64,000 nucleotides of DNA. Origin: Ziziphus jujuba. Taxonomy: Eukaryota; Streptophyta; Magnoliopsida; Rosales; Rhamnaceae. The position numbers were made by a program, and so were the translations under genes. Positions within the stretch are counted from its first letter, which is position 1. The number at the start of each line of letters is the position of its first letter. This document shows positions 13,020 to 60,830 of this stretch, piece by piece. The stretch covers positions 33,204,501 to 33,268,500 of the forward strand of contig NC_083380.1 of NCBI RefSeq assembly GCF_031755915.1. Reading direction: 5' to 3'. Under the pieces are notes generated by a model. The model did not search any database. It had not been told where the DNA came from and worked only from the letters and a program-made list of their open reading frames with translations.

Positions 13020-13180
13020 CCTCACCAAAGCTCTATTTTACTCTAACCTAAATCTGAATTTACATTTCAGAGGTATAAATTCTACCATGGTGGTTATCCA
13101 AAGATGAAAAATTGAAAGGCTGGCTCCGACTGCTGTTATTCATGGGATAGTATCGCATGCGTAGCTAATGACTGATCACA
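13020..13180 (+). pseudogene. RLP N-terminal cap remnant in block A
   Basis: Sequence matching 'ccctcaccaaagctct' and 'tatccaaagatgaaaaa' of the second RLP (59670-59790) shows the LRR N-terminal cap, with a degraded C-C-x-S-W-D motif. Frame stops occur after the KMKN-like residues. All LRRs are missing. Equivalent remnants are in blocks B (16290-16400) and C (30355-30520). Confidence 0.65.
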
Positions 13181-13384
13181 AATCACAGTTTGAACTCTGT
13201 TACTCTTCTCATATCAAATGAGAGTTTTTCATACATTTATTGCTGCAGAGCATCAGCATGTCATGATTGGAAGAAATTAAATGGGCAGTGCAATGTGGAG
13301 AAATTTTACTCTACTAAATGTGCAATTTTGTCATGTGTTATAGAAAAGTTAAAAAAGAGGGGGAAAAAAAAAATCCTTAATATC

Positions 13385-14995
13385 CATAATATCCATTGAA
13401 ATTTTTTAAATTTCGGCAAAATTTCTATAGAGATTTTCATAAAATATCTACATCAAATCCTTAACGATTTTGTTAAAAAATTTATAATTTTAGAAATTTC
13501 CCCTAAAATTTCGAAAATATCTAATATTTTTTTTTAATTTTTTTAAAAAAATTTATAAATATTATTGATATTTAGTAAAACTTGTTATCAAATTAACTTC
13601 ATTGATAATTTTTTTACCCTTTAATTGATTTTTAAACATTTAGTGATATAAGTAAAATAGAATAAATTGAATTGAATAATATTAATAAGTTCTACTTATT
13701 TATTGAGTATTGATAAAGCAAAAATACAAATATTGTGGATTATATTTTTGAACCTTGGAAATCTTAATATTTGAAACAATAATGGCAGATGATGATGAAG
13801 AGGGCAATCAAATGTACCAATGGATTAGAGATGTTTATTTAGATGATCATAAAGCGAATTCTGATCAAAAGATTGCTCAACAAGCTGAAAAAGAGGGAAT
13901 AAATATTCAAAAGTAATTGCTGAATAAGTAAATTCTAGTAGTGGTGATTCATTTCAAATGCTTATAAAAGAGCCAACTAGAACTACTAGTGCTTCAGCTC
14001 CATCAGGTGGTACACATTCACAATTTGAGACTTTTAGTAGTCACTCTAGCTCCAGTAAGGATGAAGATAACTTCAATAAATTATCTGAATTAGAAGTTAG
14101 AAGAGGCAGTGGCCAAAAGGAATCACCAAGTCAAGAAGTTGGATTAAGCCTATTTTTTTGTGAACAATATACACACATGCAACACAAGATGAAGATCATG
14201 GGAGTAGAGATGCAGGTCAAGGATTCGATGCTGTTGGAAAAGACTATATACATAAAGAAAAATCTATAATGGAGATGTAACAACAAGAAAAAGATTTAAT
14301 TTCTATGAATTTTGGATCTATGAGGGTTGAAAATTATTTTCATAATCCTTATTCAATGGATATGTATGGAAAATCATCAAGTAACAACTCATGGGTACCA
14401 TCTCAAACTCAACCATCAGCGAATAGTAGTTATGCACATAGTCAATCAATAATGCAAGATCCATATGGTTGGCATATTAATAATTATATGCAAAATTATT
14501 AGGAAGATACATCTTTTCATAATTACTTCTCAAATTTCACATCTCAAAATCAAAATGAGGAAGAAACCGATGATTTTCAACCACTAAGAAATTCTATGTG
14601 GTATTAAAATGACATTTATGAACTACAATGTAATTGAAATAATCATTTTATATATTTTAGTTAATAAAAAATTTTATCATATATGTATTTTTTGATATAT
14701 TTTTATTAATAATAATTCATTTATGGTCATTAATGCTTATAATAAATCAATTTACTAATAAAAATATAACATCCTATTCAATATTTTAGCAAGTTATGTA
14801 ATCAATTTGATAATCAATGGATTAAATAAGCTAATTCTAAAGTTTCAATGAAAATTTTCACTTTTCAAAATAAATTTCTATCATTTTTTATAACTTTTAT
14901 CGATATTCGATATTTTTCAATATTTCTATGAAAATTTTTTTATTTTAAACTTTTGATATTTTCATTAATATCGATTTTTTGAACCTTGATCCTAT
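13385..14995 (+). mobile_element. hAT-like transposon remnant (tentative)
   Basis: This stretch separates blocks A and B and is absent from block C. Its ends are rich in AAATTTC/ATCGATATT-type sequence ('aaatttcggcaaaattt' near 13410; 'ttaatatcgattttttgaac' near 14980). Such ends resemble those of some plant hAT elements. It carries the decayed coding remnant described separately. Boundaries are approximate, and no clean target duplication was found. Confidence 0.45.
13782..14607 (+). pseudogene. Decayed C-terminal tail of a hAT-type transposase (tentative)
   Basis: The reading starts MADDDEEGNQMYQWIRDV (13782) and breaks near 13915. It continues in another frame with Ser/Thr-rich residues (TSASAPSGGTHSQ) and an acidic patch. 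It breaks again near 14165-14175 and at a stop near 14278, then ends in an Asn/Ser/Tyr-rich tail (NYFHNPYSMDMYGKSSSNNS, near 14330) reaching 14607. I associate this low-complexity tail with hAT proteins that carry DUF659, from memory only. No catalytic residue or BED finger is visible here. It could instead be a fragment of another repetitive plant protein. Confidence 0.4.
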
Positions 14996-16640
14996 GATAG
15001 TACTGGAGTTTTTCCAATTAAAAGTGGGAGGAGCACAAAAATGGCTTGCGGGATTAACTTAGTTAGAATTATTTCAAAAGTTTTGAAATAAATGGATCAA
15101 GCATTTTTTAAATAAATATTTTCATTTTGGTTTAGAAATCAATAATAGTTTGATTTAAAAAGTCATAAATTTTAAATACTATATTATTTTTATAAATTTT
15201 TAACAAAATTTAATTGAATATCCTTAAACTTTTATAGATTTAAAAAAAAATTAAATTTATATTGAATATCTTCATTTTTGTTTATAAAATCTTTAACAAT
15301 GTATTAAATATATCTAATCTTTTAAAATCTAAAAAAATCTAAAAATATTTGAAAATTCATACTGAATATACAGTAATAATTGTATTTCCCTTTACTGTTT
15401 TCAACGTTCTCAATGGCAAGTTCCTTTCAAATCTTTACCGTTTCCAACCGTTCTCAATGGCAAGCTCCTTTCAAATCTTTATTGTTTCCAACGTTCTCAA
15501 TTGCAGGTTCTTTTCAAATTTAATATCATCATTTAAGGGCAATGAAAACTAACTAATTTTATGTTGGATCCAACAGAGATTGGGCTTTAAGTCTTCGTAG
15601 ACCATTGCTATGGCAAAGACTTTAATATAGTTTACCCAAAAATAATAATAATAATAATAATAATAATAAAGAAAATAAAAAAAAAGCCTATGTCCTTTTT
15701 TTTGGTAAATACAAAAAGCCTACGTCCTTGTTATTTAATAATGGCGGTGGACCACATAATAAAAGTAGTACTTTTGCCCCATTATAAGTAGCACTGTAAA
15801 TACACAAGAACGTACACTTACAAAAACCCAATCGCAATTCATAAAAACTTTCTCACTAGTAATCTCTCGTACCAAAAAATGAAGGAAATTAATGATATAA
15901 ACCAGTTGCAATAATTTTGCAGGTGATCCTTTCCTATTCTTGTCTGTTTGATACACACGTTAACATACATGGTCCTCATATTATACTAGACATTTGGATA
16001 ATTAATTAAATAGTATCAATTAACTACTCATGTTTTATTATGTCTTTCATAGTAAAATTTTATTATCTATATTTTTTTTTATGGTAGAAAATAATAAAAA
16101 TTGATATTTGATAAAGATCCCATCTTAACCTATATATATATATATATATATATTGTCCGTGATTCTCATCAAAATCACACGTTATTTCTTAAATAGGAAT
16201 ATGTTAGAAATTTGGTCAAAATATTTAGTGTTAATTTTTATCAGAGCAATTATCAGTAGAGGAGCTTAATTGATTGTAAAGTATGTTTTCTAACCTTCCT
16301 CACCAAAAGCTCTATGGTGGTTATCCAAAGATGAAAAATTGAAAGGCTGGCTGCGACTGCTTTTCTTCATGGGTTAGTATCTCTTGCGAAGCTAATTACT
16401 GATCATAAATCACATTTTGAACTCTGTTACTCTTCTCATATCAAATGAAAGTTTTTCATACTTTTATTGCTGCAGAGTACCAGCATGTTATGATTGGAAG
16501 AAACAAAATGGGCTTAAGGCAGTGCAATGTACAGAAATCTTACTCTACCTAATGTGCAATTTTATTATGTGTTAGGAAAAAACAGAAAAACAAAACAAAA
16601 CAACAGTAAACAAAACAAAACAAAAAAAAAAAAATTAAAA
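14996..16640 (+). repeat. Segmental block B (RLP promoter plus 5' remnant)
   Basis: This is a copy of block A, starting at 'cctatgatagtactgg'. It has promoter modules (three short repeats around 'ttccaacgttctcaa' at 15395-15510), a decayed RLP start near 15878, a cap remnant (16290-16400) and the exon-like piece (16475-16540). It keeps the uninterrupted MULE target ('acagaaatcttactctacc', 16531-16549). Extra AAT microsatellite lies at 15643-15668 and a TA run near 16133-16152. Confidence 0.7.
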
Positions 16641-16745
16641 AAAAAATGCAACTTCGCAATTAGTCTTTAGGCACTTTTACCCAAAAAAAATAAAAAATAA
16701 AAAATTAGTCTTTAGGCGCAGAAGTAAAGAGGTCTCTATCCATCC

Positions 16746-24079: not shown

Positions 24080-25519
24080 ATGGAGGAGCAATCTGAAGAA
24101 CTAACAATCAACATGGAAAATACTGAAGGACCAGCACCTATCAGCAAGAACAATGAAGGACCTTCTGATCTCCCTCCTGAGCTTAGTTTCATGTCCAATG
24201 TGTATGAATCATCAACTTCAAGAAGCAACCAACACATAATACCAACGGTTCCAGAGATGCTTCGTAATCTTAAAAAAGATGAAGATTGCTTTTATCCTAG
24301 TGTGGTTTCCATCGGCCCTTATTACCATGGGAGGCGTTATCTCAAAAAATTTGAGAAAAGGAAGACTAATTGGGCATGGCAATATTGTAAAACTCGTGAG
24401 GGGGTTGTTAATTTATACAACAGAGTAAAAAATGTGGCCGAAAGAGGAAGGGAATTCTATAATATGAAACGATTGACAAGTATTAAAGAAGAGGAATTCA
24501 CACAAATGATGTTTCTTGACGGTTGCTTCATTCTAGAGTTTATCATTTGGTTGCTGGGGGTAAAAGAGTATTATGATATAGGGATGAATAATAATGAGAT
24601 AGCTGATGTCAAGCGAGACTTGTTCTTGTTAGAGAACCAACTCCCTTACATTGTTCTCGAGGCGTTAATGGAGGGCTATAAATATGAAAGGGAGGAGACA
24701 TTAAAAAAATTCATCACTATCTGTGGAAGTCTTCCTCCTGCAGAAAAAGAAGATGAACGTCCTCTTCATCTTCTCGACATGATGAGGACAAGATTTGTGA
24801 AACAAAGTGCTACCTTCCCCTCTCGACGTCAGGTGCGGGATATGATACTCTCAGCTCTTTTAGATAAGGTGCGCCACTGTATGGGAATCCGGTCCAGCCC
24901 CAAAAAAAGAGCCACCCCAAGTGCTACCATTGATTGTTACTCTTATCCTACAGCCAGGGTGCTCAATTCTATGGGAATCTGGTTCAGACCAAACAAAACA
25001 GGTAGTTTTGGCGATGTCAAGTTTGAATCTCAACTGTTCATCTGGGGAGTGCTCACACTTCCTCGAATACTCATAGATGCCTCCACCAGATCCCTGCTGC
25101 TCAACATGTTGGCTTTCGAATCAAGCTATACAAACTTGAAGGACCAGCAGGGTGTCACCTCTTATATGTGCTTCATGGACTCACTTATTGACAATGCTGA
25201 TGATGTGATGATCCTGAGATCCGAGAACGTCATCGTCAATTGCTTGGGAACGGACCAAGATGTAGCAGATCTATTTAACGACATAGCAAGCAATTTGGTC
25301 CCAAACCATCATACTTATGCTGAAGCTAAGCTTGGAATTCAAAAGTATTGCAATAGCAAGTTCAAGAGATGCAAGAGCAAGTTCAATATATGGATGTCAG
25401 AATGTTACAACAACTATTTCAGAAGCCCTTGGACGTTTCTTGCATTATGTGGTGCCATTTCTGTCGTCTTGCTCACTGCAGCTCAGACCTATCTGGCAGC
25501 ACGGCAGCTCAAAAATTGA
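24080..25519 (+). CDS. DUF247 (UPF0481) protein, intact
   Basis: A single uninterrupted frame encodes 479 residues, the usual size for this plant family. After a variable acidic N-terminus the DUF247 domain starts at about residue 57 (MLRNLKKDEDCFYP, VVSIGPYYHG). It continues through DGCFILEFI (about 147) and DLFLLENQLPYIVLE (about 180). A later region with IWFRPNKTG and an FESQLFIWGVLTLP stretch follows, and it ends with a hydrophobic helix (LALCGAISVVLLTAAQTYLAA). That helix suggests a C-terminal membrane anchor. The start at 24080 is the first ATG in frame. A second DUF247 copy at 44330-51790 is dead. DUF247 proteins have no agreed biochemical role; grass homologues are tied to self-incompatibility, which cannot be transferred to this gene. 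Confidence 0.93.
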   Translation: MEEQSEELTINMENTEGPAPISKNNEGPSDLPPELSFMSNVYESSTSRSNQHIIPTVPEMLRNLKKDEDCFYPSVVSIGPYYHGRRYLKKFEKRKTNWAWQYCKTREGVVNLYNRVKNVAERGREFYNMKRLTSIKEEEFTQMMFLDGCFILEFIIWLLGVKEYYDIGMNNNEIADVKRDLFLLENQLPYIVLEALMEGYKYEREETLKKFITICGSLPPAEKEDERPLHLLDMMRTRFVKQSATFPSRRQVRDMILSALLDKVRHCMGIRSSPKKRATPSATIDCYSYPTARVLNSMGIWFRPNKTGSFGDVKFESQLFIWGVLTLPRILIDASTRSLLLNMLAFESSYTNLKDQQGVTSYMCFMDSLIDNADDVMILRSENVIVNCLGTDQDVADLFNDIASNLVPNHHTYAEAKLGIQKYCNSKFKRCKSKFNIWMSECYNNYFRSPWTFLALCGAISVVLLTAAQTYLAARQLKN

Positions 25520-29404: not shown

Positions 29405-30660
29405 TTTTTCTTTTATAGATTTTAAAAGAAAAAATTTAAAATTTATATTGAATATCTTTGTTTTTTTATAAAGTCTTTAACAATGTATTAAATATATCCA
29501 ATCTTTTAAAATCTAAAAAAGTTGGAAAATTCATACTAAATACACATAATAATTGTATTTCCCTTTACTGTTTCCAACGTTCTCATTAGCAAGTTTCTTT
29601 CAAATCTTTACTGTTTCGAACGTTTTCAAGAGCAAGTTCCTTTCAAATTTAGTATCATCATTTGAAGGCAGTGAAAACTAATTTTATGTGGGATCCAGCA
29701 CAGATAGGGCTTTAGGTCTTCGTAGATCATTGCTATGGCAAAGACTTTAATATAGTTTACCCCAAAAAAATAAAATAAAAAAGCCTAAGTCCTTGTTATT
29801 TAATAATGGCAGTGGACCACATTCCAGACCCTCCAATAAAAGTAGTACTTTTGCCCCATTATAGGTAGCACTGTAAATACATAAGAACGTACACTTACAA
29901 AAACCCACTCGGAATTCATAAAAATTTCTCACTAGTAATCTCTGGTACAAAAAAGTGAAGAGAAATTAATGATATAAACCAATTGCAATAATTTTGCCGG
30001 TGATACTTGCATATTCATGTCGATTTGATACACATGTTAACATACATGGTCCACATATTATAATATATATTTGGATAATTAATTATACAGTAACAATTAA
30101 CTACTCATGTTTTATTATGTCTCTCATAGTAAAGTTTTATTATCTATTCTTTTTTTCTGGTAGCAAATAATAAAAATTGATACTTGATAAAGATCCTATC
30201 TTAACCTATATATATTTGTTCTTGGTTCCATTAAAATCTCATGTTATTTTCTAAATATGAATATGTTAGAAGTTTTGTCAAAATATTTAGTGTTAATTAA
30301 TTTTTATTCGAGTAATTATCAGTAGAGGAGCTTAATTGATTCTAAAGTATGTTTTCTAACCTCCCTCAACAAAGCTTTATTTTTCTCTAACCTAAATCTA
30401 AGTTTACATTTCGGAGGTATAAATTCTACTATGGTGGTTAGCCAAACATGAAAAATTGAAAGGCTGGCTATGACTGCTGTTCTTCATGGGATAGTATCTC
30501 ATGCGAAGCTAAAGACTGATCATAAATCACATTTTGAACTCTGTTACTCTTCTCATATCAAATGAGAGTTTTTCGTACTTTTATTGCTCCAGAGTACCAG
30601 CATGTTATGATTGGAAGAAACGAAATGTGCTAAAGGCAGTGCAATGTACAGAAATTTTTA
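29405..30660 (+). repeat. Segmental block C, left part
   Basis: Third copy of the A/B block: promoter modules (29568-29760), 'ggcagtggaccaca' (29807), a decayed RLP start near 29956 and an RLP cap remnant (30355-30520). The exon-like piece follows (30588-30650). Block sequence stops at 30660 at the MULE and resumes at 39186 ('ctctaccaaatgtgcaattt'). Confidence 0.75.
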
Positions 30661-30789
30661 GGGAAATTTGGCCCAATACCCTTAGTTTAAGGGTGTTAAC
30701 GATTTATATCCTAATTCATCAAATTTTTTATTTTACCCTCTCATTTTTTAATATTCCTAAAACACCTTTATGTCAAAATTAAACTTCTT

Positions 30790-31521
30790 TTTTTTTTTTT
30801 TTTTTTTAATTTTGGGTTTTTTCTTTCTTTCATTGTTGAAAACTCCTTCAGTCTTTCAAAAGCTCCAGCAAAGTCTGCTCCTACAAAGTTTACTCCTGCA
30901 ACCCAACTATTCTCTTCTCCTTCATCAACGTTTACTTCTTTTCTTTTTTTTTCTTGTTTTTTCTTCATTTCTTTTGTCTTTTCCTCATTTCCTTTTCTTT
31001 TTTATTTTATTTTTTGTTTCCTTTCTTTTCCACCACCTCTGTGCAGTATCTTTTTTCCTGTTAAAACCCACCAGCTCTTCTCTTCTCCTCCATCAAAGTT
31101 TTATGTCTTTTTTTTTTTTTTCTTGTTTCTTCTTCCTTTCTTTTGTCTTTTCCTCGGTTCCTTTTTTTTTCTTTTTCTTTCTTTTCGACCATCTCTCTGC
31201 AATTTCTTTTCTCCTGTCAAAATCTTGCTCTTCTTTTCTCCTTCATCAACGTTTTACTTTTTTTTTTTTTTTTGGTTTTTTCTTCCTTTCTTTTGTCTTT
31301 GCCTCACTTCCTTTTTTTTTTTCCCTTTCTTTTCCACCACCTCTCTGTAATTTCTTTTCCCCTTTCAAAACCCAGCTCTTCTCTTCTCCTTCATCAATGT
31401 TTTACTTCTTTTTTTCTTTTTTTTTTTTTGTTTTTTCTTCCTTTTCTTTTTTATTTTATTTCTTTTCTTTTTTTTTCCACCACCTCTCTGCAATTTTTTT
31501 CCCCTTGTCAAAACCCTAAAT
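30790..31521 (+). repeat. Pyrimidine-rich tandem array in the MULE
   Basis: About five imperfect units of roughly 138-166 bp occur; starts of 'ccaccacctctctgcaattt' or close variants are at 31030, 31196, 31334 and 31477. Each unit also holds 'gctcttctcttctccttcat' or a variant and long T/C tracts. The last unit runs directly into the AHL fragment at 31522. The array may therefore be amplified 5' UTR or promoter sequence of the captured gene. Long Phe/Leu/Ser frames through it are composition artefacts. Confidence 0.7.
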
Positions 31522-31695
31522 TTCAAGAAGAAATGGGGGAGGCCTAGAAAATATGGTCCTGATGGGCCTATTTCTTTGTGATTGTCACCCATGTCTGCTC
31601 CTCCTTACCTCACATAGGTTTCAACCACATCTTCTCAGAAACGGAGTAGGAGGCAGCCACCTAGGACCGGGAGGAAACAACATTAGCTATGCTTG
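31522..31695 (+). pseudogene. Captured AHL gene fragment, exon 1 (AT-hook protein)
   Basis: The frame reads KKKWGRPRKYGPDGPISL, then a stop, then LSPMSAPPYLT, then a stop, and VSTTSSQKRSRRQPPRTGRK near the end. This is the AHL arrangement: a first AT-hook (RGRPRKYGPDG, with the first Arg changed to Trp), a Pro/Ser-rich linker and a second AT-hook region (RGRPPGSGRKQ-like). AHL proteins are nuclear DNA-binding regulators. The fragment ends at a consensus-like donor (CTTG/GTAAAC at 31695/31696), where AHL exon 1 can end. Stops occur at 31576-31578, 31612-31614 and 31684-31686. The upstream start codon is not seen. Confidence 0.82.
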
Positions 31696-32098
31696 GTAAA
31701 CATTGTAAATTTTGTCAGTTTTTCGACTTCACCATTGCTCTTCTCTCTTTTTCTTCATGATTTTTGGTGATTTATATGTTATTTATAGGTTTAATTTTTT
31801 AGTTGCAACTTTCATTTACTTTATTTCTTTGGATGTTTGTTACCATCTTGTGCTTGTTTAATTAGTGTTTTAAAATTCTTTTTGGTGGAACTTTGTTAGA
31901 TACGAAAAATGCCCCATGAAACATGATTGATTTAGCACAAATATATCCTAACATGTTTAGGGGTTGTGAAACAGAATCGTATGTAGAGGAAGAAAGGTGG
32001 CTTTATGTGCTAATTTTGTGGATATTTGTTTCTGCATATATTTTAAATTCTATGGATATATTTTTCAAATTTTCTCTTGTTAAATTGCTTCTTGGTAG

Positions 32099-32166
32099 AT
32101 GATTGGATGAAGAGCTTGGTTGGAATAGCATTTGCACATCATGTAATTATTGTCAGAGTTGGAAAG
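32099..32166 (+). pseudogene. Captured AHL gene fragment, exon 2 (start of PPC domain)
   Basis: Between an acceptor (CTTGGTAG, ending 32098) and a donor (AAAG/GTATGC, 32166/32167) the frame reads WMKSLVGIAFAHHVIIVRVG. It matches the beginning of the AHL PPC/DUF296 domain (WM.SSAG.AFTPHVI.V..GE). The exon is open and in the right order after exon 1, with the intron (31696-32098) retained. The capture was therefore from genomic DNA and not from mRNA. The rest of the PPC domain is missing. Confidence 0.8.
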
Positions 32167-32322
32167 GTATGCTATGTATTTTTATGGTAAACTTTATTAT
32201 GAAGCACGGACATATTGCTACAAGCAGTGATGCTATGTTATTTTTAGGGTATAGAATGTTCTTTCTTAGAGTTAAAAGTTTGTACGATTAATTGAGTATT
32301 CTCTTATTTCTTGTGCTTATAG

Positions 32323-32540
32323 AGAAGGAGAATTTGTGTCTCTATGAACTTCCAAATGAGACATGGGAAGTTAATCTACCTATTTAGGAGGTGCCTCCTG
32401 AGCTTCCAGAACCAGCCTTAGGTATAAATCACGCTAGGGATGGGATGCAAAAGAAGGATTGGTTGTCACTAGTTGCAGTTCATGGTGATTCATGGTTGCT
32501 TGCTGTTGCTTTCTACCTTGGTTTGCGCTTTGGTTTCTAC
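32323..32540 (+). pseudogene. Captured Alfin-like gene fragment
   Basis: After an acceptor-like 'tgcttatag' the frame reads [18 protein letters not shown], a stop at 32384-32386, [14 protein letters not shown] and [20 protein letters not shown], ending near LRFGFY. This is the distinctive conserved N-terminal (DUF3594) region of Alfin-like PHD-finger proteins, which bind methylated histone H3 in the nucleus. The PHD finger itself is absent. It lies only about 155 bp after the AHL exon 2 donor, so splicing could join the two captured genes. It has one stop and a few substitutions. Confidence 0.88.
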
Positions 32541-33900
32541 TGTGGATTAGTTTACTCATTCTAGGCGAAAAGAAAAAAAAATTGCCAACGCAATTGTTAA
32601 ACAAATATTTATTTTAGAGCAAGTTACCCCTTTCTGATGTTGTTTCACCTGTAATAGTGGAATTGAGTCCCCAGTTCATACTGAAAACTACTTGTATTAT
32701 GAGAGTAATCATATGCTATCTTTTGTATATTTGAGCTTTTTTGGTTGACTGGAAACACACATTATAGATGCTCATTTACATTCACTTTGCAAACCTTTTG
32801 ATTTTGTTTTCAAAGCATTAACTACCTGTTGCACATGACGTACGTTTGAGCAACTTTGACTTTTATACAACCTTTTGTATGTCAAAGTTACCTTCTTAAA
32901 GGAAAGCTCAATGTCTCAAAAGAAAGCTATATATTCTATTGTATTCTTTCTCTTATTAGTTATAATGCTTTCCAAATTTTGCTTCCAACGGATCTCTGTA
33001 AATTTAATAAAGATTATTGACCTAGAGCTCTTCATAGTGTGAAAAAATAAATATTTATTGGCCTTTTGAGACATTAAGTCAAGACTTTGTGGTCTGCAGT
33101 TGTTACCATTTATTTAGTTTCATCTATCTTTAGTTGGAAAGATTGCACTTTTCTGTGTTTGTCTCAATTTTATTTTATTACTTAATATTTCATTTTTAGG
33201 CATTTGAATCTTACCTTTGCTATGAAATATTGGATGCTTAGCTGCTATTGTGTCATGCATGGAGAAGTTTAGTTGGCTTAATAATAAATATTCAAGTTTA
33301 ATTCAGTTTGAGTTCTAGTTTAATTAGCTAGTTTGTGCATTTTCTTAAAATTCTGGTTATCGATTTTAAATCTATTTGAACATTATTTCTAGTAGTGCCT
33401 TATTTTTAATATTTTGTTAAATTCCAAAATATGTATACGATAAAGCATTAAATGAATTAAAGAACAATGCACATTTCACCCATCTACCATTTCTCTCTCT
33501 GACTATTGAAATCTACGCCCATTAACCTCTATCCCTCTCTCTTCCTCTCCCATCTACCACATTCAATTTCATCCTCTGTGTCTCCCTCTCTTTTTCTCTT
33601 TTCTTGATTACATAGCTTTCAGTCAGTGATCATCCCACAAAACCATCATTTTCTCACTTCATCTCTGTTATTGGTCTCCCAACAACTAGATAACAACAAG
33701 ACTTTGAAAAGCTTCATTGTGGAGCCCATAGACTTTAGGTTTCATTGGTAATTAAAATGTACGTTTGTACAGTAGAGCACATAAAGATTGGTATGCATAT
33801 AGACTATGGGTTTCCTCGGTAATTATATGTTCCCCCGATGCTGGCATGTAGGCCCTAGCATTCAAACATCATGTCCCTAAAACTCTCCCATGACTCTCCG
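32541..33900 (+). other. MULE interior, unassigned (intron- or leader-like)
   Basis: This is 1.3 kb of T-rich, intron-like sequence. It is followed by a C/T-rich leader-like stretch ('ccctctctcttcctctccc', 33531) before the transposase. It may contain introns of the captured genes or further fragments, but I recognise no protein in any frame. Confidence 0.4.
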
Positions 33901-33923
33901 GATATCAAAATTGTGAAAATGAT

Positions 33924-36021
33924 GTGCAAACTATGGAACAAGATCATGACAATGAGTGCTTTGACATTAATGATTTGAATGAATATCGTAGCCATGTTAT
34001 GACAATGAGGAACAAAATGAGGTTGAAGGCAACACTGATCTTAGTGAAGATGGGTTACGTGACATATGTTGGACCCAACATTCAAGACTATCACCTGGTG
34101 ATAGTCAACATGGTGCTTCTCCTCATGGTAATAGTCCAATTGGTAATGTGAACGATGATGTGATTGATTCTCCTCATATTGATAACCATATGCACATTCG
34201 TCGAGAATCTATATCATTCGTTGCTGCATATAGGGCTAACCATAGCTTCGCATCTATCAATGACCATGAAATCATTTGTATGAACCAACTCTTTTCAAGT
34301 AAGAATGAGCTACAAAAGAAGCTTCGTCTATATGCACTGGGGAGAAATTTTGAATTCAAGGTCAAAAAATTAGATAGGGTCCGATATGAGGTTGTATGTG
34401 TAAATGATAATTGCAAATGGCAATTACGTGCTACCAAGATACATGGTGAGAAGACAGACGCCTTCGTGATTAGGGTCTTTGAGGATGACTGTATTTGCTC
34501 TTTAAATATCATGAAAAGGGATCATTGTCTAGCAGTAAGTTCAGTTATTGGAGGCATCATCCAGCCAACGTTTGATGGTATTTCAGGGCAATACAAACCC
34601 CGTGATATTGTGCATGACATTCACTCTAATTATGAAGTAAGCTACAATAAAGCGTCGGTCGCTAAGGAAGCTGCACTATCAGGTTTGTGGGGTACGCCCG
34701 AAGAGTCATATGCAAAACTCCTTTTATGGAGTTACATTTTAAAGAGCAAGAATCCGGGCACATTTACTCGAATTGAAACTAATGATCTAAATAGATTTTT
34801 TTATTTTTTTCATGGCACTTGGAGCTAGCATCAGAGGATTTCATCATTAGCAGAGAGTCGTAGCTGTCGATGGAACTATGCTAAATAATCGATACAAAGG
34901 TTTATTATATATTACATCATGTTTGGATGGAAATAATCAAATTCATCCACTTGCTTATGGAATAGGCCCTGGGGAGATAGATGTAGCCTACACGGGGTTT
35001 TTTGAGAGATTCAAAGAAGCATTTGGTAATGATCCCAATATAGCTTTTATATCGGACAAACATAAGAGAATTACGAAAGTGATACGAACAATTTTTCCTA
35101 ATAATCACCACAGCCACTGCACATATCATCTTGGTACAAATTTGTATGCTAAGAAGTTTAAAGGTAATGTCAATGCGATTATATCAACTTTTAATGATGC
35201 AGCTAAAGCATATATTGTTGAGGAATTTGATAAGGCCATGCAGATTTTAGAAGGGGTCAGTATTGATGTTGTACAATATCTCAAGGATGCAAATCCTACT
35301 AAATGGGCTAGATCACATTCTCCGGGCAATCGATACAACATCATGACCACTAACATCGTAGAGAGCATGAATTCCGTGCTCCTTGATGGTAGGGATAACC
35401 CATTTTGCCACTACTAGATCACATTCGTGATGTCTCGCAAAAGTGGTGGTTTGAACGTCGAAATAATGCAGCTGCAATGCAAACTCCTGTTACTAACTGG
35501 TTGGAAAATATCATGCAAGAGCACTCAAATAATGGCAGAGGCTTTTGTATTATTCCATTGAACTTATACGAGTTTTAGGTTGTTGGCCATGGCGTTTTGG
35601 TTGGAGTAATCAACTTAGAAAGTAAGATGTGCTCATGCAAAGAATTCAACATTGATGGATTTCCCTATGTCCATGCAATTGCATCATGTAAGTTTTGACC
35701 TTTTTCTCCATATACCCTTTGCTTGGTGCATTACTCAGTTGAGTCTCTCCGTGATGCATATTCGGAGACCATATATCCACTTGGAGATAAATGTCAATGG
35801 CATGCTCTAAATGATGTCATAAATCAACTTGTACTTCCACATGAGATTGGCAAACAGTCAGGATGACCAAGAAAGAAAAGGATTCAATCTCAAGGAGAGG
35901 AGCATCTTCAATATAGATGCAGGAGATGTAAACAGATTGGTCATAGCAAACAATCTTGCTTAGCTGCTGTACCATTTCATAGCACCACCAACCAACAGCA
36001 CCATTCAACATCTGAACCATA
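33924..36021 (+). pseudogene. mudrA-type MULE transposase, decayed
   Basis: Domains appear in the expected order. An acidic N-terminus (33924-34190) is followed by a MuDR N-terminal DNA-binding region with C-x4-C (VCVNDNCKWQLRATK, about 34395-34440) and MALGASIRGFHH before the DDE domain. The first Asp is in VAVDGTML (34869-34871), the second in FISDKHKRI (35055-35057) and the Glu in TTNIVESMNS (35361-35363). A SWIM-like zinc region (CSCKEFNIDGFPYVHA, about 35629-35680, one Cys changed to Tyr) and a CCHC knuckle (CRRCKQIGHSKQSC, about 35917-35958) follow. Breaks include a frame change near 34015, one in the T run near 34800 and stops near 34850, 35416 and 35577. The gene cuts and pastes the element in family members; this copy cannot. 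Confidence 0.9.
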
Positions 36022-36429
36022 AATCTCTCTACGCTATGTTAAGCCCCCGGGGGTATGTTATTCGGTATATGTTACTATGCATGTGTAGTTTTGTTATCCG
36101 TTTAGTTGCGGTATGCTTGTGTTATGCAATGTTGTAAGAATGTAATTGTAGCCCAACTACTTAATGTGTGATTTGGTAAAACAGTCATCGATTTCCATTG
36201 GTTTGTTTTGTTGAAAAGGTCATTTGTCATAGTGTTTTGGTAAAATAGCATTATGTGTTCAATATTTTATATGTTTTTTACTGTTACAAAGATGCTATTT
36301 GATAACAGTGATAATACGATATTAATGTGCTTATTGAATTTTGCTTGGAATATTATTTATTTTTGGTGCACATACACATTTTGTAAGTAGGTGTATTAAT
36401 TTGTAATGATTGATAACACTTTTAAAGGA
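36022..36429. other. MULE interior after the transposase
   Basis: AT-rich sequence between the transposase end and the palindrome array, probably the transposase 3' UTR. No other feature is seen. Confidence 0.4.
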
Positions 36430-38640
36430 ACTGGCAATTACCGATAGCAAAAAACCTGCAATTACCGATGCGAACCATCAGTAATCCCATGTAGGAGTCC
36501 ATTGCTTGCTCAATAGCTTACCGATGTTTTTCTTCGGTAATTGCTGATATATCGTTGGTAATTGACAGTTGTCCATTGTTTCAAAGGAAATTACCACAAT
36601 TCCATCTAACTGATTCGATCATGTGTGTTTCCATCAATAACATGCAAAAATTAACTTTATTAATGATCCTCAATAAAAGAATGTAATTATAAATCGAAAA
36701 AAAGTGGGAAAATTTCAAGTAATCATGATTACCGACGGTGCATCGATAATTACTGATGTAAATGGTTTCATTAGAAATTACCGATGTTCAACCCTACTGG
36801 CAATTTAAATTTGCATAGATTTTTCAATTCGACAACTTTGATAATGTGTGTTTCCACAAAGAACATGAAAAATCTAATTTTATTAATAATCCTCAACAAT
36901 ACAATCCACAAAAATTTGGAAAGACTTAGAGAATTACAACCAAAGTTGATTACCGACGGGGCATCGGTAATTACCAATAAAACCGTCGATAATCAATTTC
37001 AGGGATTCATATACTTGCTGAAAAAATTACCAATAGATTCATCGGTAATTATCGAAACACCGTCAGTAATTATAATTTCACAATTTTTTAAAAGCAAATA
37101 ACTACAATTCAATCCGACAACTTCGACAACGTGCGTTTCCACCAAGAACATGCTAAATCTAGCTTTATTAATGATCCTTAACAAAATAAGCCAAAAAAAG
37201 ACCTTAAGAAGTGAAAAAATTTCAAATAAAATTGATTACCGATGGTGCATCAGTAATTACCAAAACCCCATCGGTAATTTCAATTAACATATTTTTTGAT
37301 GCCGACAAGTCCGATAATGTGTGCTTCCACCAAGAACATGCAAAACCTAATTTTATTAATGATCCTTAACAACACAATGCACAAAAAGTTTGGAAAAACT
37401 TAGAAAATTACAACCAAAGTTGATTACCGATGGGGCATCGGTAATCAATTTCAGGGGTCCATATGCTTGCTGGAAAAATTACCAACAAATTTATTGGTAA
37501 TTACCGAAACTCCATTGGTAATTAAAATTTCATAATTTTTTAAAAGCAAATAACTACAATTCAATCCGACAACTTTGATAATGTGTGTTTCCACCAAGAT
37601 CATGCTAAATCTAGCTTTATTAATGATCCTCAATAACATAAGCCAAAAAAAGACTTTAAGAAGTGAAAAAATTTCAAATAAAGTTTATTACCGATGGTGC
37701 ATCAGTAATTACCGATGCCGATGGTTTCATCGATAATTATCGAAACCTCATCGGTAATTTCAATTTGCATATTTTTTCAATCTGACAACTTTGATAACGT
37801 GCATTTCCGCCAAGAACATGCAAAATCTAAATTTATTAATGATCATCAACAATACAATCCAGAAAAAATTTCGAAAAAGTTAGAAAATTATAACCAAAGT
37901 TTATTACCGATGGGTCATCAGTAATTACCGATAAAACCGTCGGTAATCCATAACTACCACCTGTTCCATAGATAATTACTGAAACCCCATTGGTAATTAC
38001 AATTTGATAATTTTTTCAAAGCAAGTCACCACAATTAGATCCGAAAACTTCGATAATGTGTGCTTCCACAAAAAATATGCTAAATATAATTCCTGAACAA
38101 AAAAAATCCATAAAAACTTCAAAAAAAGTGAGAAAATTACAAACTTTGTTGATTACCAATGGTCCATTGGTAATTATCGATAAAACCGTTGGTAGTCCAA
38201 AATACTTGCTGGAAAAATTAACGACAGTTTCATCGGTAATTACCGAAACCCCATCGATAATTAAAATTTATCTAGTTTTTCCAAAGCAAATCATCACAAT
38301 TCAATCCAACAACTTCGATAATGTGTGTTTTCACCAAAAACATGCTAAATATAACTCCTGAACAAAAGAATCCACAAAAAGTTTGGAAAATGTGAGAAAA
38401 TTACAAACTTTATTGATTATTGACGGTCCATCGGTAATTACCAACAAAACCATGGGCAATCCAAAAAAAATTACTGACGGTTTCATTGGTAATTACTGAT
38501 ACTCCGTCAGTAATTTCAATTTGTCCATTTTTTCAAAGCAAATGCACCACGATTCAATCTGAAAACTTTGATAATGTGTGTTTCCACCAAGAACATGCTA
38601 AATATAACACCAAACCATCACACCCAAACACAAAATTAAT
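36430..38640. repeat. Palindrome-bearing tandem array in the MULE
   Basis: About nine units with spacing of roughly 190-290 bp are marked by 'gataatgtgtgtttccacca' or variants near 36620, 36840, 37125, 37312, 37577, 37793, 38053, 38318 and 38570. Between these lie clusters of the motif ATTACCGATGG and its complement CCATCGGTAAT. They often form short hairpins such as TTACCGATGG-tg-CATCGGTAA (37235, 37686) and the self-complementary TCGGTAATTACCGA. Each unit carries one or two such clusters. The units have drifted apart, so the array is old. Its role is unknown. Confidence 0.85.
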
Positions 38641-38839
38641 CTACAAATTCTTTGATAACCAAAACTCTAGAGAGAGTTCAAGAAATTCAAATAATTAAGA
38701 CCCATTTCACTAAAAACCCCATAGCAAAACTCATATTCCGTTTTCATAAGAAAATGCAGAATTAACAAGGAAAAAGCACCATTTTCTCCAAAAGGAAAAA
38801 GAAAAAAAAAAAGAAAAAAAAAGAGTAAAAAGGAAGCAC
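38641..38839. other. MULE interior, 3' part, unassigned
   Basis: About 200 bp of A-rich DNA between the palindrome array and the CHLD fragment. On the minus strand it looks like leader or intron sequence, but nothing specific is recognised. Confidence 0.35.
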
Positions 38840-39045
38840 TTGACCAACAATGGCAGCTAAAGGGAAATACTATCTTCCATAAGGAGTAACATCTAGATTC
38901 TTCTCTGGAGCTAGTACGGCTCCATTGCCATTGCCAGAGTCAGCAAAAGTAGTAGCATTTGCAGAAGCATGAACATGAAGGCCATGGAAGTGAATGCGTT
39001 TGAAGTTGAAAGAAGAAGAAGAAGAAGAAGCAAAAGAGGGAGAGA
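38840..39045 (-). pseudogene. Captured CHLD fragment (magnesium chelatase subunit D, N-terminus)
   Basis: Read on the minus strand, a Ser-rich transit-peptide-like stretch (SPSFASSSSSSFNFKRIH) leads to VHASANATTFADSGNGNGAV. VTPYGR, a stop at 38870-38872 and YFPLAAIVGQ follow. CHLD proteins begin with a chloroplast transit peptide, an RASANAT-like junction and then YGRQ(Y/F)FPLAAVVGQ, the start of the AAA+ domain; the match is specific. CHLD acts in chlorophyll synthesis in plastids. The fragment ends right after VGQ, and the ATPase body is missing. It lies in reverse near the right end of the MULE. Confidence 0.82.
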
Positions 39046-39185
39046 AGAGACATACAGGTTTTTAAAATTTTTTTCAAAAGTATAATAGTTATTTAAGGGT
39101 AAAACAAAAAAGATACTGAAAGAAGGGGTATAAATCATTAAGGCTCTGTCCAAAGGGACAATGGGCCAAATTCTTCAAATTTTTA

Positions 39186-45759: not shown

Positions 45760-47290
45760 ACTTACTCTAAAGTAAGTCTGGAATTCTCTTAAGACCCATA
45801 CAATTTACATGCTTATCAAACACACGTTCAGGAAGAGTCTTAGAAAAAGGGTCTGCTAGGTTCTCCTCAGATGCTATCTTTGTAACAACTGTATCTCCTC
45901 TATCAATGAAATCACGGATCAAGTGGTACTTTTTTAATATGTGTTTCTACTTCTTGTGAGACCTGGGTTCTTTGGACTGTGCTATAGCCCCACTGCTATC
46001 ACAATAAAGGGTAATAGGCCAATCTGTACCTGGTATCACATGGAGATCCAAAAGAAATTTCTTAAGCCATACAGCTTCCTTTGCAGCTTCAAATGCAGCT
46101 ACATATTCAGCTTCAGTTGTGGAGTCAGCAACACAAGTCTATTTAACACTCCTCCAACAAATGGCTCCTCCATTTAGGGTAAACACATATCCTGATGTTG
46201 ATTTGCTAGAATCAATATCCCCTTGAAAATCAGAGTCCGTATAACCAAGGGTTTCAAGACTCCCACTGGAATACACCAACATATAATCCCTCGTTCTCTT
46301 TAAATACTTGAGTATATGTTTCACGGCAGTCTAGTGTTCTACTCCGGGTCTTATTGGTACCGGCGTACTACTCCCACCGCATGACAGATATCTAGCCTGG
46401 TACATAGCATGGCATACATGAGACTACCAACAGCCGAAGCATAAGGTTTCTTACTCATGAGTTCTTTCTCTTTAGGAGTTTTTGGTGATTGCTCCTTAGA
46501 AAGATGAATTCCATGTCTGAAAGGTAGAAGTCCCTTTTTGAAATTTTCCATGCAGAACCTGGTCACTATTTTATCAATGTAGGAAGCTTGGGATAGAGCT
46601 AACATCTTCTTCTTCCGGTTTCGTAAAAGTTTGATTCCTAGAATATAGTTAGCTTCACCCAAGTCCTTCATATCAAACTACTCTTTCGAGTAACCCTTTA
46701 CGTCTGACAACACTTTCACACTGTTTCCAATTAACAGAATGTCATCTACATAAAGAACCAGAAAAACAACCACTATTCCTTTAATCTTTTTATACACACA
46801 TGGTTCATCAGGGCTTTTCTCAAAACCATATAATTTGATAACTTGATCAAACCTGATGTTCCATGATTTGGATGCTTGCTTAAGTACATAAATAGACCTA
46901 TGCAGCTTTCAAACCATGTGCTCTTGACCTTTTGTTATAAACCCTTCCGGATGCTACATATAAATGTCCTCTTCCAGCTTCCCATTTAGAAAAGCTGTTT
47001 TGACATCCATTTTCCAGATCTCATAATCGATAACTGCTGCTACAGCTAAGAGAATCCGGACAGATTTAAGCATGGCTACTGGCAAAAAGGTTTCATCATA
47101 ATCGATGCCCTCTTTCTGGGTGTAACCTTTTGCCACCAATCTAGCTTTGAAGGTTTCAACATTCCCATCTGGTCCTCTCTTTCTCTTGTAGTTCCACTTA
47201 CACCCAATTGGTTTTACCCCTTTAGGTGCTTCTACAAGAGACTAGACTGAGTTAGAATTCATAGATTCCATCTCACGGTCCATGGCCTTT
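45760..47290 (-). pseudogene. Copia reverse transcriptase and RNase H, decayed
   Basis: On the minus strand the RT reads [16 protein letters not shown] (about 47140-47090), [18 protein letters not shown] (about 47005-46954) and YVDD, complementary to 46741-46752. MKDLGEANYILGI follows at about 46671. RNase H follows with GYTDSDFQGD, STSGYVFTLNGGAICW (about 46190-46145) and ADSTTEAEYVAA (about 46130-46095), ending in ENLADPFSK near 45850. Stops and frame changes break it at least near 46324, 46350, 46675, 46915, 47240 and 47292. Confidence 0.88.
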
Positions 47291-47292
47291 CT

Positions 47293-49015
47293 TCATTCTT
47301 GCACATCAACATCCTCCAATGCCTCTCTGTATGTGGTAGGATCGTCATCAGGATTATCGAAAACGACTTGATAAGTCTCTTCTAACAAGGCATACCTTGC
47401 AGGTTTACGTATCATTCTCCCACTACGAGTTTGCTGCACTGGTTGTTGTACATGTACAGGAGGATCCAAATTTTGTGGTTCAAGTGGATTATCAATCTCT
47501 TCATTATATCCTTGTTCTTGAGTTTCTTGAATTTGGTCTTGAGCTATTTCTTGTGTTTGTTCACCTTCGGGTGCATTTTGTACATTTTTCCTTCTTTGGA
47601 CATCAACAGGAAACAGGGGTGGAAAAATAGGAGTTTTTGGTGGATCTCTAACTGAGTCAAGCTTTTCAAGAACCGCTTTATTCTTAGATTTAAAATTGTT
47701 CATAGAATCCTCTTCTAAGAAAGTGGCATTAGTACTTACTATCACCTTCTTTTCCTTTGGATTATAAAATATTCCACCTCTCGTTCCCTTAGGGTAGCCA
47801 ATAAATATACACATTTCTGTATGAGATTCCAATTTATGAGATTTCTGGGTTAAGACATGTGTTTGGGCACCTGAAATCCAAATATGGTTTAAGTTGGGCT
47901 TGCTCCCTTTCCATAATTCTGTGGGTGTCTTTGAAACAGATTTAGATGGAACCAAGTTTAGTATGTATACAGCTGTTTCTAAGACATATCCCCAAAACGA
48001 TTCAGGTAATGATGAATAACTAAGCATCGACCTCACCATATCTAAAACTGTTCTATTTCTCCTTTTAGAGACTCCATTTTGCTGGGGCGTTCCAGGAGAT
48101 GATAATTGGGAAATGATCGTCTCTTTAGCCAAGTAAGACTTGAACTCTCCAGACAAGTATTCACCGCCTCAGTCAGACTGAAGCTGTTTGATATGGACAC
48201 CTAATTGCTTTTCTGTCTCAGCCTTATACTTTCGAAATTTATCAAAAGCTTCAGACTTATGGCGCATTAGGTAACATAACCATATCTTGAGTAGTCATCA
48301 GTAAATGTGATGAAATACTCATATCCGCCTCTTGCTTGAACGCTCATTGGTCCACATACATCAGTATGTACCAATTCCAATTGTATGGTGGCATGATTTC
48401 CTTTGGCTTTGAAAGGCCTCTTTGTCATTTTACCTTCTAAACATGATTCACATACTGGTATAGGTTCAAAGATCAAGGAATTTAAAATTCCACTTTTAAT
48501 GAAACCATAAATCCTGCTAGAATTAATATGACCCAATCGCAAATGCCATAGATAGGTTTCATTTGAAACCTTCCTTTTCTTAGATAAGGGAAGTTACTCA
48601 TCATCATTAATTTCAATGGCATTAATACTATAAGACAAAGGAGTTAAAAAATATAGACCATTCATCAATAATCCGGAACAACTAAAAGTATTATTACTCT
48701 TGATTGAAACTGAGGAATTAAACTGTACTGTTAAACCATGTTCAACTACACAACTAACAGAAACCAAATTCCTCTTAAAATCAAGAACAAATAAACAGTC
48801 TAATAAACTTAAAATTTTATTATCAAAATATAACTCCACTAGTCTTACTGCCATTACGGAAACATATTCTTCGTTTCCCAACTTCAAGCTTCTTTGTCCT
48901 TTATTGAGTGGGCTGCTTTGTTTGAACTACTACAAAGAGTAACAAACATGGTTAGTGGCTCCTGAATCAATTATCCATTTGTCATTGTAATTCTCCACTA
49001 AACAAGCCTCAACAA
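47293..49015 (-). pseudogene. Copia protease and integrase, decayed
   Basis: The protease site DSGATNHVC lies at about 48975-48948. The pre-integrase zinc region (MRLGHINSSRI...CESCLEGKM) is at about 48542-48435. The integrase core has VHTDVCGPM and FTDDYSRYG (about 48375-48270) and then [16 protein letters not shown] (about 48095-48045). The C-terminal region reaches 47293 and includes the copia-typical [11 protein letters not shown]. Stops break it near 48265, 48160, 48592 and 48930. Insertion of element DNA into the genome is the family's role. Confidence 0.88.
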
Positions 49016-49067
49016 CATTTAGACTACCCATACCTGATTTAGGACAGTCCTTCTTCCAGTGACCTTT

Positions 49068-49871
49068 CTATCGGCACTTGAAGCACTTGCCTTTCGGCTT
49101 CTTCATTGCAGCCGGTTTGACAGCTGGACCTGTTCCCTTCTGCTTCTTGTTCTTCTTTCCACCCTTAGGCTTCCTTTTAGGCTTTGAAGAACTTTCAGCA
49201 TGATAAGCACTTTCTTGCTTCTTGAGAGACCTTTCAGCACTCTCAATCTCGTGCATCAGTTTAACAAGAGTAAGCTTTAATTTGTTCATATTATAGTTCA
49301 TTTTGAACTGACTAAAGCTATTCGTTAGAGATTCCAAGATCATGTCTATCTTCATATCTTGTTCCAGCTTAGCCCCCATCACTTTCGCAGTACTGATGTG
49401 CACCATCATCTTTAAAAAATGGTCCCGCACACTTCTTCCAGTCATGCGAGTGTTCATTAATGCCCCTATAGCTGCTTGTCTAACAGTACTGCTACTTTTA
49501 GCAAACATCCCATCTAGAGTCTGAATCATTTCTGACACACACTCCAGACTATCAAGTTGCTTCTGCAAATGTTCTACAACGCTGGCAAGAATATAACAAC
49601 GAGCTGTTATATTTGCCCATTGCCAATCTGCAAATTTCTTCTTAGTTTCCTCTGAAGCATTAACAGCGGTCTCCTGGGGTTTCGGAGTTGTTGTAATGAA
49701 TTTAATTCTCTCAAAATCAAGGACAATATAGAGATTGGTTTTCCATAGGTCGTAGTTATTTCCATCCAATGGTTTTTGATTCAAAATTGTAGCTAGAGGA
49801 TTAAAGGATGCTATTTTTCGAAAATTAAAATGCACACATATTAACACGTAATCAACACAACAAACATACAA
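49068..49871 (-). pseudogene. Copia gag, truncated at the zinc knuckle
   Basis: A 267-residue frame with LDGNNYDLWKTNL near the start and the copia gag (UBN2/DUF4219-type) pattern. A basic KPKRKPKGGKKNKKQ stretch and the first half of a CCHC knuckle (KCFKCR) follow. A TAG stop then falls inside the knuckle; the rest (KGHWKKDC) is readable just after it (49066-49040). The protein normally forms the particle and binds element RNA. Confidence 0.88.
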
Positions 49872-50993: not shown

Positions 50994-51790
50994 GAATTAT
51001 CAACTCCAAGAAGCAATCAATAATCAGAAGGACACAAAATACCAAAGGTCCTAGCGATGCTTCGTAATCTTGAAAAAGATGAAGGTTGCTTTTATCCTCA
51101 TGTGGTTTCCATAGGTCCTTATCACCACGGGACGCGTCGCCTTCGAGAATTTGAGAAACTCAAGATTAAATTGACAAAGCAATATTGTAAAAATCTTGAT
51201 GGGATTGTTGATTTATACAAGAGAGTCGAAGCCATTGCCAAAGAAGTCATGAAATTCTATAATATTCACGAACTTTGGTGTCATGTTAAGAGATTCACAA
51301 TAATCATGTTTGTTGACGGTTGCTTCATTCTAGAGTTTATCATGTTGTTGCAGGGGGTAAAAGGGTATTATGATATAACAATGAATAAAAATGACATAGC
51401 TAATGGTATTATGATATATCGATGAATAAAAATGACATAGCTAATGTCAAGCGAGACTTGTTCTTGTTAGAGAACCAACTCCCTTACATTTTTCTCGAGT
51501 TAATGAAGGGCCATAAAGAATATGACTTATGTGTCAAAGAATTCCTCCTGCAGTCAAACCATCTATTTAACGACGTAGCAAGCGATTTGACCTCAAACCC
51601 TCATATGTATGCCGAAGCTAGGCGTAAAATTCAAAAGTATTGCGATAGCAAGTTCCAGCAATGGATGGCAGAATGTTACAACACCCATTTCAGAAGCCCT
51701 TGGACTCTTCTTGCATTATGTGGTGCCAGTTCTATCATCTTGCTCACTGCGGCTCAGACTTTTCTGGCAGCATGGCAGCTCAAAAATTGA
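50994..51790 (+). pseudogene. DUF247 pseudogene, 3' part
   Basis: The frame resumes with ELSTPRSNQ, then a stop, then MLRNLEKDEGCFYP and VVSIGPYHHGTRRL, DGCFILEFIMLL, a break, DLFLLENQLPYIFLEL, and the C-terminal helix (LLALCGASSIILLTAAQTFLAA) to the stop near 51790. Two lesions stand out. A 41-bp tandem duplication (51364-51404 and 51405-51445) shifts the frame. About 520 bp present in the intact copy (about 24741-25262) are deleted at 51551. The copy therefore cannot encode a full DUF247 protein. Confidence 0.88.
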
Positions 51791-59548: not shown

Positions 59549-60250
59549 ATGAAGAGGGATATGATTAATCAGTTCCTTTTGTTTTTCCTGGTGATCCTCT
59601 TATATCCATATCTGTTCGATTCATATTCTCTGCACCTGAATTCCACAACCGTTATTTTCTCTAGCTGCCTCCCTCACCAAAGCTCTATTTTACTCCAACT
59701 TAAATCTGAGTTTACATTTCAGAGGCGTGAACACTATGATGGTTATCCGAAGATGAAAAAATGGAAGTCTGGTAGTGACTACTGTTCTTCTTGGGATGGT
59801 GTCTCATGCGATATGGCAACTGGTTATGTAATAAGCCTTGACTAAGCCAGAGTTGGCTGCATGGGTCTCTGCATTCTAACAGCAGCCTTTTCAGCTTGCT
59901 TCATCTTCGAAAGCTCAACCTTGCCTTCAACAACTTCACTTCTTGCCCGATTCCTTCGGAGTTTGGCCAACTTTCAAGGTTAACCAATCTCAACCTCTCT
60001 AATTCTATGTTTTATGGGCATATTCCAATATTTGAAATTTCAAGGCTTACAAATTTGATTTCACTTGATCATTCTAACGACGGTTATATGAAAGAAGGAG
60101 AATTCGGAAGGCTTACCCAAAACATGACCAATTTAAGAGAACTTTACCCTGATTGGGTGCAAATTGATTCATCTATACCTATTCACTTTGCAAATTTATC
60201 TTCCTTGACACATCTCTCTTTTTGGGGTTGCAATTTGCAAGGTGAGTTTC
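59549..60250 (+). pseudogene. Receptor-like protein (LRR-RLP) copy 2, truncated
   Basis: An ATG at 59549 opens a signal peptide (NQFLLFFLVILLYPYLF) and the LRR N-terminal cap (SSCLPHQSSILLQLKSEF, then YCSSWDGVSCD). A stop follows at 59843-59845. A frame change of net minus one sits at the same place as in RLP pseudogene 1. LRR sequence then runs from about 59857 (LHLRKLNLAFNNF, LSRLTNLNLSNS) to LQGEF near 60248, where gypsy LTR sequence begins. About 700 bp of a gene that would be near 3 kb remain in the window. The copy closely matches pseudogene 1 over this stretch but has a 36-bp deletion near 60080. It cannot encode a receptor. Confidence 0.9.
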
Positions 60251-60830
60251 TAATACGAACCTAGGACGACCTGCTCCTAAACCCCGTATTATATTATCCC
60301 GAATCTTTAATTAAGTTTAGGTTCTAATGGAATGGACCTCAACCCCTAACCAACCTGTGGTTAGAAACCTTGGTATAATGTAGACACCACAATAGGGGAT
60401 GGAAAACCTATTGATAAGTCAAGCTAAAACAACCAATTCTCTAATGGTGTTTTAGGTGTTCACAAAGAACAAAGAGATAATTAATCTCACAAGTATTTTC
60501 TCAATCAAATCAAAATTGTATTCATATTGAAAAATAAGCCTTTAAATAGGCTTTGAAAGAAACAAAATAAACCCTAAAAACCCTAGGAAAAATCGGCCAC
60601 ACACATAAAGAAACCTAGTTGGCCGCAACTATACTTCCTTTCCTAATCTAAGTTTGATTAATTAATTCCTTTATATTAAATTAGGAATTAATTAATTTAC
60701 AATAAAATAAAAACCTTCCTAAAGTTATTTGTCCAGAAAATAATTAAATAAAAACCCAAAAAGAAATAAAGTCTATTGCAAATTAGGTAACGAGTTGACT
60801 TTGACATTTAGACTGAATTATGTCTTCAAC
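60251..60830 (-). repeat. Gypsy 3' LTR (limits approximate)
   Basis: Foreign sequence starts where RLP homology ends ('ggtgagtttc' at 60241). On the minus strand a CTATTTAAAGG TATA-like box (complement of about 60538-60548) is followed by a leader-like stretch toward 60251. This fits a U3-R-U5 order. The junction does not show a TG/CA end, so the outer end may be trimmed. The inner end is hidden by the minisatellite. The partner LTR is outside the window. Confidence 0.55.

Follow-up and report, generated by a model that had tools for sequence, protein, structure and literature searches.

How does a single transposable element come to hold a transposase gene together with pieces of three host genes, and did it take them up by itself? 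The question is raised by an element in the genome of jujube (Ziziphus jujuba), which carries fragments of an AHL AT-hook gene (AHL5), an Alfin-like gene and CHLD beside a mudrA-type transposase gene. The element lies in a window of 64,000 nucleotides (C2:33204501-33268500 of contig NC_083380.1; "the window" means this whole stretch), and genome-wide DNA searches were done over 393.8 Mb in 14 contigs. The element is probably a chimera of two gene-capturing lineages of Mutator-like elements (MULEs), which would have been joined in or at the edge of an array that both lineages share, the joined element being transposed afterwards.

The inserted element and its contents

The features are given below by window position and strand (none where no strand applies), with the evidence in brackets; the target site duplication is abbreviated TSD.

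30652..30660, no strand: left TSD copy, 9 bp, AAATTTTTA (exact repeat and empty sites)
30661..39176, no strand: complete MULE, 8516 bp (TSD, ends and empty site)
30661..30760, plus: left terminal region, an imperfect terminal inverted repeat, common to five sister elements (sister alignment and shuffle control)
30890..31516, plus: T-rich tandem array of ~148-bp units, of AHL5 leader/upstream origin (match to AHL5 and shuffle control)
31523..32284, plus: AHL5 genomic fragment with the end of exon 1 (amino acid 90 on), intron, exon 2 (~32092-32166) and part of the next intron (93% to parent)
32288..33262, plus: Alfin-like genomic fragment with exon (~32322-32537) and intron (PF12165; two candidate parents)
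33263..33801, plus: linker, common to other Alfin-carrying MULEs (DNA search)
33810..36025, plus: broken mudrA-type transposase gene with stops and frameshifts (PF03108, PF10551)
36440..38607, no strand: subterminal array, its units ~250 bp long and rich in ATTACCGATG...CATCGGTAAT (arrays related to it occur in relatives with AHL and in relatives with CHLD)
38605..39050, minus: CHLD genomic fragment with exon 1 (~amino acids 31 to 99) and ~235 bp of intron 1 (87% to parent)
39051..39176, minus: right terminus travelling with CHLD (present in 27 of 32 other CHLD copies)
39177..39185, no strand: right TSD copy, 9 bp, AAATTTTTA (exact repeat and empty sites)
~16383..16690, no strand: paralogous empty site 1 (aligned to the joined flanks)
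~13160..13460, no strand: paralogous empty site 2 (aligned to the joined flanks)

The stretch 30661-39176 is an inserted MULE. Its duplication is exact and 9 bp long, within the 8-11 bp that serves as the criterion for MULEs, and an identical 9-mer is expected by chance from base composition at 1.2e-5. A block of the window is tandemly duplicated, and in two other copies of this block the flanks of the element are joined without it; these paralogous empty sites tell that the element was inserted here. The two 100-bp termini scored 42 as inverted repeats, where 500 dinucleotide shuffles reached 34 at most, so the ends form a terminal inverted repeat, though an imperfect one. An 18-base terminus pattern, searched with up to 5 mismatches, matched the two ends of the element only and no internal terminus; across the whole window, with at most 3 mismatches allowed, its one match was the left end. 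That this picture arose from chance matches, or from unrelated fragments nested in one another, is hardly credible: the AT-rich composition is all that speaks for it, and it is already contradicted by the exact TSD, the two paralogous empty sites, the sister elements and the shared termini.

The captured pieces were identified by protein searches and their parents were tracked in the same genome. The AHL piece was identified by full-length protein search through its match to Ziziphus jujuba AHL5 (E 7e-17), and was not recognised by Pfam or PDB searches. The CHLD piece matched Ziziphus jujuba ChlD in the protein search (E 3e-20), and in its correct frame it gave chance matches only in Pfam and PDB (E 0.17 and 0.22). 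The Alfin piece was found both in Pfam (PF12165, E 4.7e-36) and in PDB (ALFIN-LIKE 7, E 4e-40). The AHL5 parent lies at C6:27441387-27442147 (93% over 763 bp) and the CHLD parent at C10:6902526-6908680 (87% over 446 bp), while the Alfin-like piece has two near-equal candidate parents, C9:22046482-22047450 (83%) and C7:29220882-29221838 (82%), over ~970 bp. All three pieces contain intron sequence and therefore were copied from genomic DNA, not from mRNA. A further element, L077 (C5:11182700-11186900), retains more AHL5 and Alfin DNA and differs in its AHL5 jump, which suggests that the original captures were probably longer than they are now.

The T-rich array at the left is a derivative of the upstream leader region of AHL5, as judged by similarity; conceivably, this leader DNA might drive the transposase. 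Its range in Tandem Repeats Finder is 31010-31516, and repeat matches extend back to ~30890. The units match AHL5 ~630-745 bp upstream of the ATG at 75-82%, with a best score of 118, while 500 dinucleotide shuffles gave at most 63. The AHL5 exon piece adjoins the last array unit after a parental jump of ~900 bp in all six elements compared.

The transposase region was recognised by Pfam (PF03108, E 2.3e-9; PF10551, E 1.6e-15), its best protein relatives are from Ziziphus jujuba, and its reading frame is interrupted by stops and frameshifts. A Pack-MULE carries host gene fragments, which are present here, and has no transposase, which is present here too, though broken; the intact transposase frame of an autonomous MULE was not found. 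The element is therefore neither of the two and is best read as a non-functional chimeric, gene-carrying MULE. A sequence-only reading had described an element with end repeats between exact 9-bp duplications, holding a mudrA-type transposase, AHL AT-hook exons with their intron, an Alfin-like exon and a reversed CHLD piece; all of this is borne out, with the correction that the transposase gene is broken.

The related transposase family is large, with 1881 candidate places in the genome, of which 75 were scored, those 75 being at 85-100% identity. Some transposases of this family sit in stop-free open frames of 895-896 codons. At C12:17561730-17650318 five equal-scoring MULE transposase copies are spaced at exactly 21,710 bp, that is, a fivefold tandem segment.

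Relatives of the left and right ends

The genome search that the sequence-only reading had proposed for parent genes and sister elements yielded, besides the three parents, five AHL5+Alfin sisters and 32 other CHLD loci. In the DNA search for the AHL5+Alfin module 40 of 436 candidates were scored, and the contiguous module occurs in at least six places: the window, C5:19.34 Mb, C9:8.01 Mb, C9:11.04 Mb, C6:23.38 Mb and C11:24.82 Mb. The left arm aligns with the five fetched sisters at 88-89%. The AHL5-derived parts share 91.4-93.9% identity with one another and 92.5-93.8% with the parent, which is nearly a star, and the only well-supported pair among them is C5 with C9:11.04 (support 0.965).

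Transposase sequence is present in three of the five sisters (about half of the gene in C5), the region in sister AHL_C9 being 87% identical to that of the window element, and none was found in the stretches fetched for C6 and C11. By tblastn, CHLD is absent from the fetched stretches of all five. Other right arms were seen instead. C5 and C9:11.04 have in common a reversed carrier-like piece, whose frames gave Mito_carr in Pfam at 4.9e-11 for AHL_C9 and at 0.0021, below the cut-off, for AHL_C5; we take the piece to be of the ADP/ATP carrier kind, Pfam giving Mito_carr only. C6 and C11 share another right arm, and the C6 sequence has a frame which we assume to be FPP-like, Pfam having found nothing for it. 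An exact TSD was not found at sister AHL_C6 by the automatic search; 7 of 9 positions agree by eye.

Alfin without AHL occurs at at least 12 further loci, seven of which have the 5′ sequence of the transposase in order nearby (list read by eye). Since Alfin is found without AHL at these loci, it was probably acquired first and AHL5 later, as far as the distribution of the sequences tells. A separate set of MULE-like loci holds an internally deleted Alfin piece and no AHL5, for example at C2:13.02 Mb, C8:7.89 Mb and C4:33.35 Mb.

The right end has a different set of relatives. In the genome search with jujube ChlD 59 of 75 candidates were scored, hence the counts are lower bounds: counting the window but not the parent gene, at least 33 loci hold the CHLD exon-1 piece, and at least three more have exon 2 alone. 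Each of the 32 exon-1 loci outside the window was fetched, and in 27 the alignment extends into the first 9 bases of the terminus of the window element. The flanks of the copies (14 bases, compared by eye) mostly differ; those of L049 and L062 look alike, so some of the loci need not be separate insertions. The element CHB_C4 is bounded on both sides by a perfect AATAATAAT duplication, and 6.0 kb of it is common to CHB_C8b at 93%; no transposase was found in either, and CHB_C8a retains a C-terminal fragment of one. One piece of CHB_C4, for which only weak beta-propeller matches were obtained, is presumably katanin-like. In L039 two MULE ends stand head to head at ~4494-4514, ~15-20 bp apart.

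At the inward junction, read by eye, 14 of the 32 copies continue into the parental CHLD intron and 18 enter array sequence. An automated tally of these junctions, 26 and 6 from a comparison of two weak scores, was set aside.

Measured against their own consensus, the CHLD copies show differences of 4.7%, 4.8% and 2.7% at first, second and third codon positions and of 4.4% in the intron, and the parent differs from the copies by 9.7%, 6.2% and 4.2% at these positions and by 9.6% in the intron. Purifying selection on the protein is expected to hold back positions 1 and 2 rather than 3; none is seen, and the codon-position differences give no sign of constraint at the protein level. Of 29 copies counted, with that of the window, 6 contain an in-frame stop and 5 a length change that is not a multiple of three. 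In the copies L013-L068 third positions of the captured CHLD exon vary less than positions 1, 2 and the intron.

Change of ancestry and rival histories

For a scan in 120-bp steps, three AHL sisters out of the five, nine CHLD loci that differ in length and nine representatives of the wider transposase family were set against the element. The AHL set matches all the way from 33801 to ~36080, a stretch in which the one match among the CHLD loci is a C-terminal transposase piece in CHB_C8a. Between ~36080 and 38600, which is mostly array, the match is about as good with the AHL elements as with the CHLD class-A loci. From 38601 on, 81-114 of 120 bases are identical in the CHLD loci and 11-60 in the AHL set. 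Ancestry thus switches near 38600, where the array runs directly into CHLD.

Because the AHL5+Alfin module and the CHLD end each recur elsewhere, and the five AHL elements show no CHLD in the stretches fetched, the window element is read as a chimera of two lineages. The left arm, linker and transposase would come from a transposase-bearing MULE lineage carrying the Alfin-like fragment, of which a sublineage may have gained AHL5 DNA at the left arm, and the right end from another set of MULEs whose terminus holds CHLD exon 1. The two would have been joined within the common 250-bp repeat array or at its edge, and the joined element would then have moved to the present site, creating the 9-bp duplication. 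The host genes would have been copied as genomic DNA, probably via gap repair after excision, and the captured pieces would later have decayed without visible constraint on the proteins. The insertion, the parents, the sisters, the shared termini and the switch near 38600 are shown directly; how the joining came about, in which direction and order, and that transposition came after it, we infer.

The junction itself bears on another account, in which two adjacent elements were mobilised as one compound element with an outer end from each, as in the Pack-TYPE model described in PMC8903248. Head-to-head ends such as those of L039 do exist in the same genome, and the model as presented there permits loss of the internal ends through deletion or mutation. 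The window element, however, has no internal terminus by the 18-base pattern, and its array passes straight into CHLD, which makes this account very unlikely.

Several points weigh against a chimera. The wider transposase family equals the AHL sisters over ~34461-35860 and matches less well than the AHL set on either side of this part. The array is too similar in the two lineages for the crossover to be placed. The inward end of the window CHLD is the same as in 18 of the 32 copies, but the array that it meets there stands in a different phase. The right arm was read for four of the five AHL sisters, AHL_C9b (C9:8.01) being the fifth. In a tree of 28 of the 32 CHLD copies (given without branch supports; L062, L065, L067 and L068, whose matches were split or short, are not in it), the window copy comes off early, next to L053 and L064 and outside the large clade. 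An ancestral element which had all parts and was later broken up would suit such a position, and we consider it unlikely.

The early-branching CHLD copy also favours a history in which a single transposase-bearing MULE took up all three genes stepwise, the other elements being partial derivatives with arms lost or replaced, and the AHL copies, about equally distant from the parent, agree with it. Against it stand the three transposase-bearing sisters, which show no CHLD in the stretches fetched, two of them with the common carrier-like right arm, and the fetched CHLD elements, which have other bodies, two of them with the 6.0 kb in common. All parts together are seen in one element only, and the stepwise history is improbable. 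The sequence-only reading is accordingly kept in that one element carries the three captures, and probably has to be given up in that one element made them, the pieces recurring in separate lineages.

A wider proposal may be put forward tentatively, and is more doubtful than probable. The terminal arms of this jujube MULE group may be exchangeable cassettes, in which host DNA beside the terminus (CHLD, carrier and FPP-like pieces at the right, AHL5 at the left) became fixed and was recombined between lineages via the 250-bp array, so that one capture could reach many element bodies, and a captured leader, amplified in tandem, could give rise to new subterminal repeats.

Surroundings and comparison with known systems

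The window has several tandemly duplicated blocks, and the MULE lies in a non-coding part of one of them. A DUF247 plant gene is at 24080-25519 (PF03140, E 5.2e-89), with a degraded relative, by DNA similarity, at 51057-51790. Leucine-rich-repeat genes or fragments lie in several frames at 602-3272 and 59896-60264, of which 2598-3269 was confirmed by Pfam. Retrotransposon remnants occupy 46351-49871 and 60963-63996 on the minus strand, with copia-like frames (by eye) and a gypsy-like reverse transcriptase with RNase H (RVT_1, 1.4e-38).

How MULEs acquire genes is described as yet to be understood (PMC3310237), and a mechanism still undiscovered is said to be possible (PMC13317346). With the parents, the longer-capture element L077 and alternative arms in one genome, the order of capture and exchange is directly testable here. 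The locus also demonstrates what is lost in surveys that set aside transposase-bearing elements: a rice study, as reported, removed such elements before defining non-autonomous MULEs (PMC4858842), and the Pack-TYPE pipeline as described classes them as autonomous (PMC8903248). The apparent rarity of gene pieces with a transposase thus comes partly from classification.

Pack-MULEs are characterised as non-autonomous and usually 2-3 kb long (PMC9168764, PMC13317346). The jujube element resembles them in its MULE ends and host gene fragments, which in Pack-MULEs sometimes come from several genes, and differs in being 8.5 kb long and in holding a transposase gene, though broken. Like barley Abermu it is a large MULE with a transposase and additional sequence, which in Abermu consists of extra open reading frames that may be captured; those are presented as of unknown origin, whereas the jujube parent genes were identified (PMC9168764). 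In MULEs with multiple terminal inverted repeats captured sequence can likewise join an extended terminal region, but no duplicated terminus was found in the jujube element (PMC3310237).

No description of an exchange of gene-carrying arms via a shared subterminal array was found in the open-licence literature searched. A close likeness is with grapevine, where ULP pieces lie downstream of the transposase open reading frame in several MULE families and another family has cellulose-synthase exons and introns (PMC2528002). As in jujube, gene pieces (ULP) stand beside the transposase, exons (cellulose synthase) are captured with introns and the TSDs are of 9 nt. Unlike the grapevine MULEs as described there, the jujube element has arms with different host genes in one element, and its CHLD piece is fixed next to the terminus at ~30 loci. 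The combination of transposase and captured fragments, which the sequence-only reading had called unusual, is therefore already known (PMC2528002), and the mixed arms are the new part.

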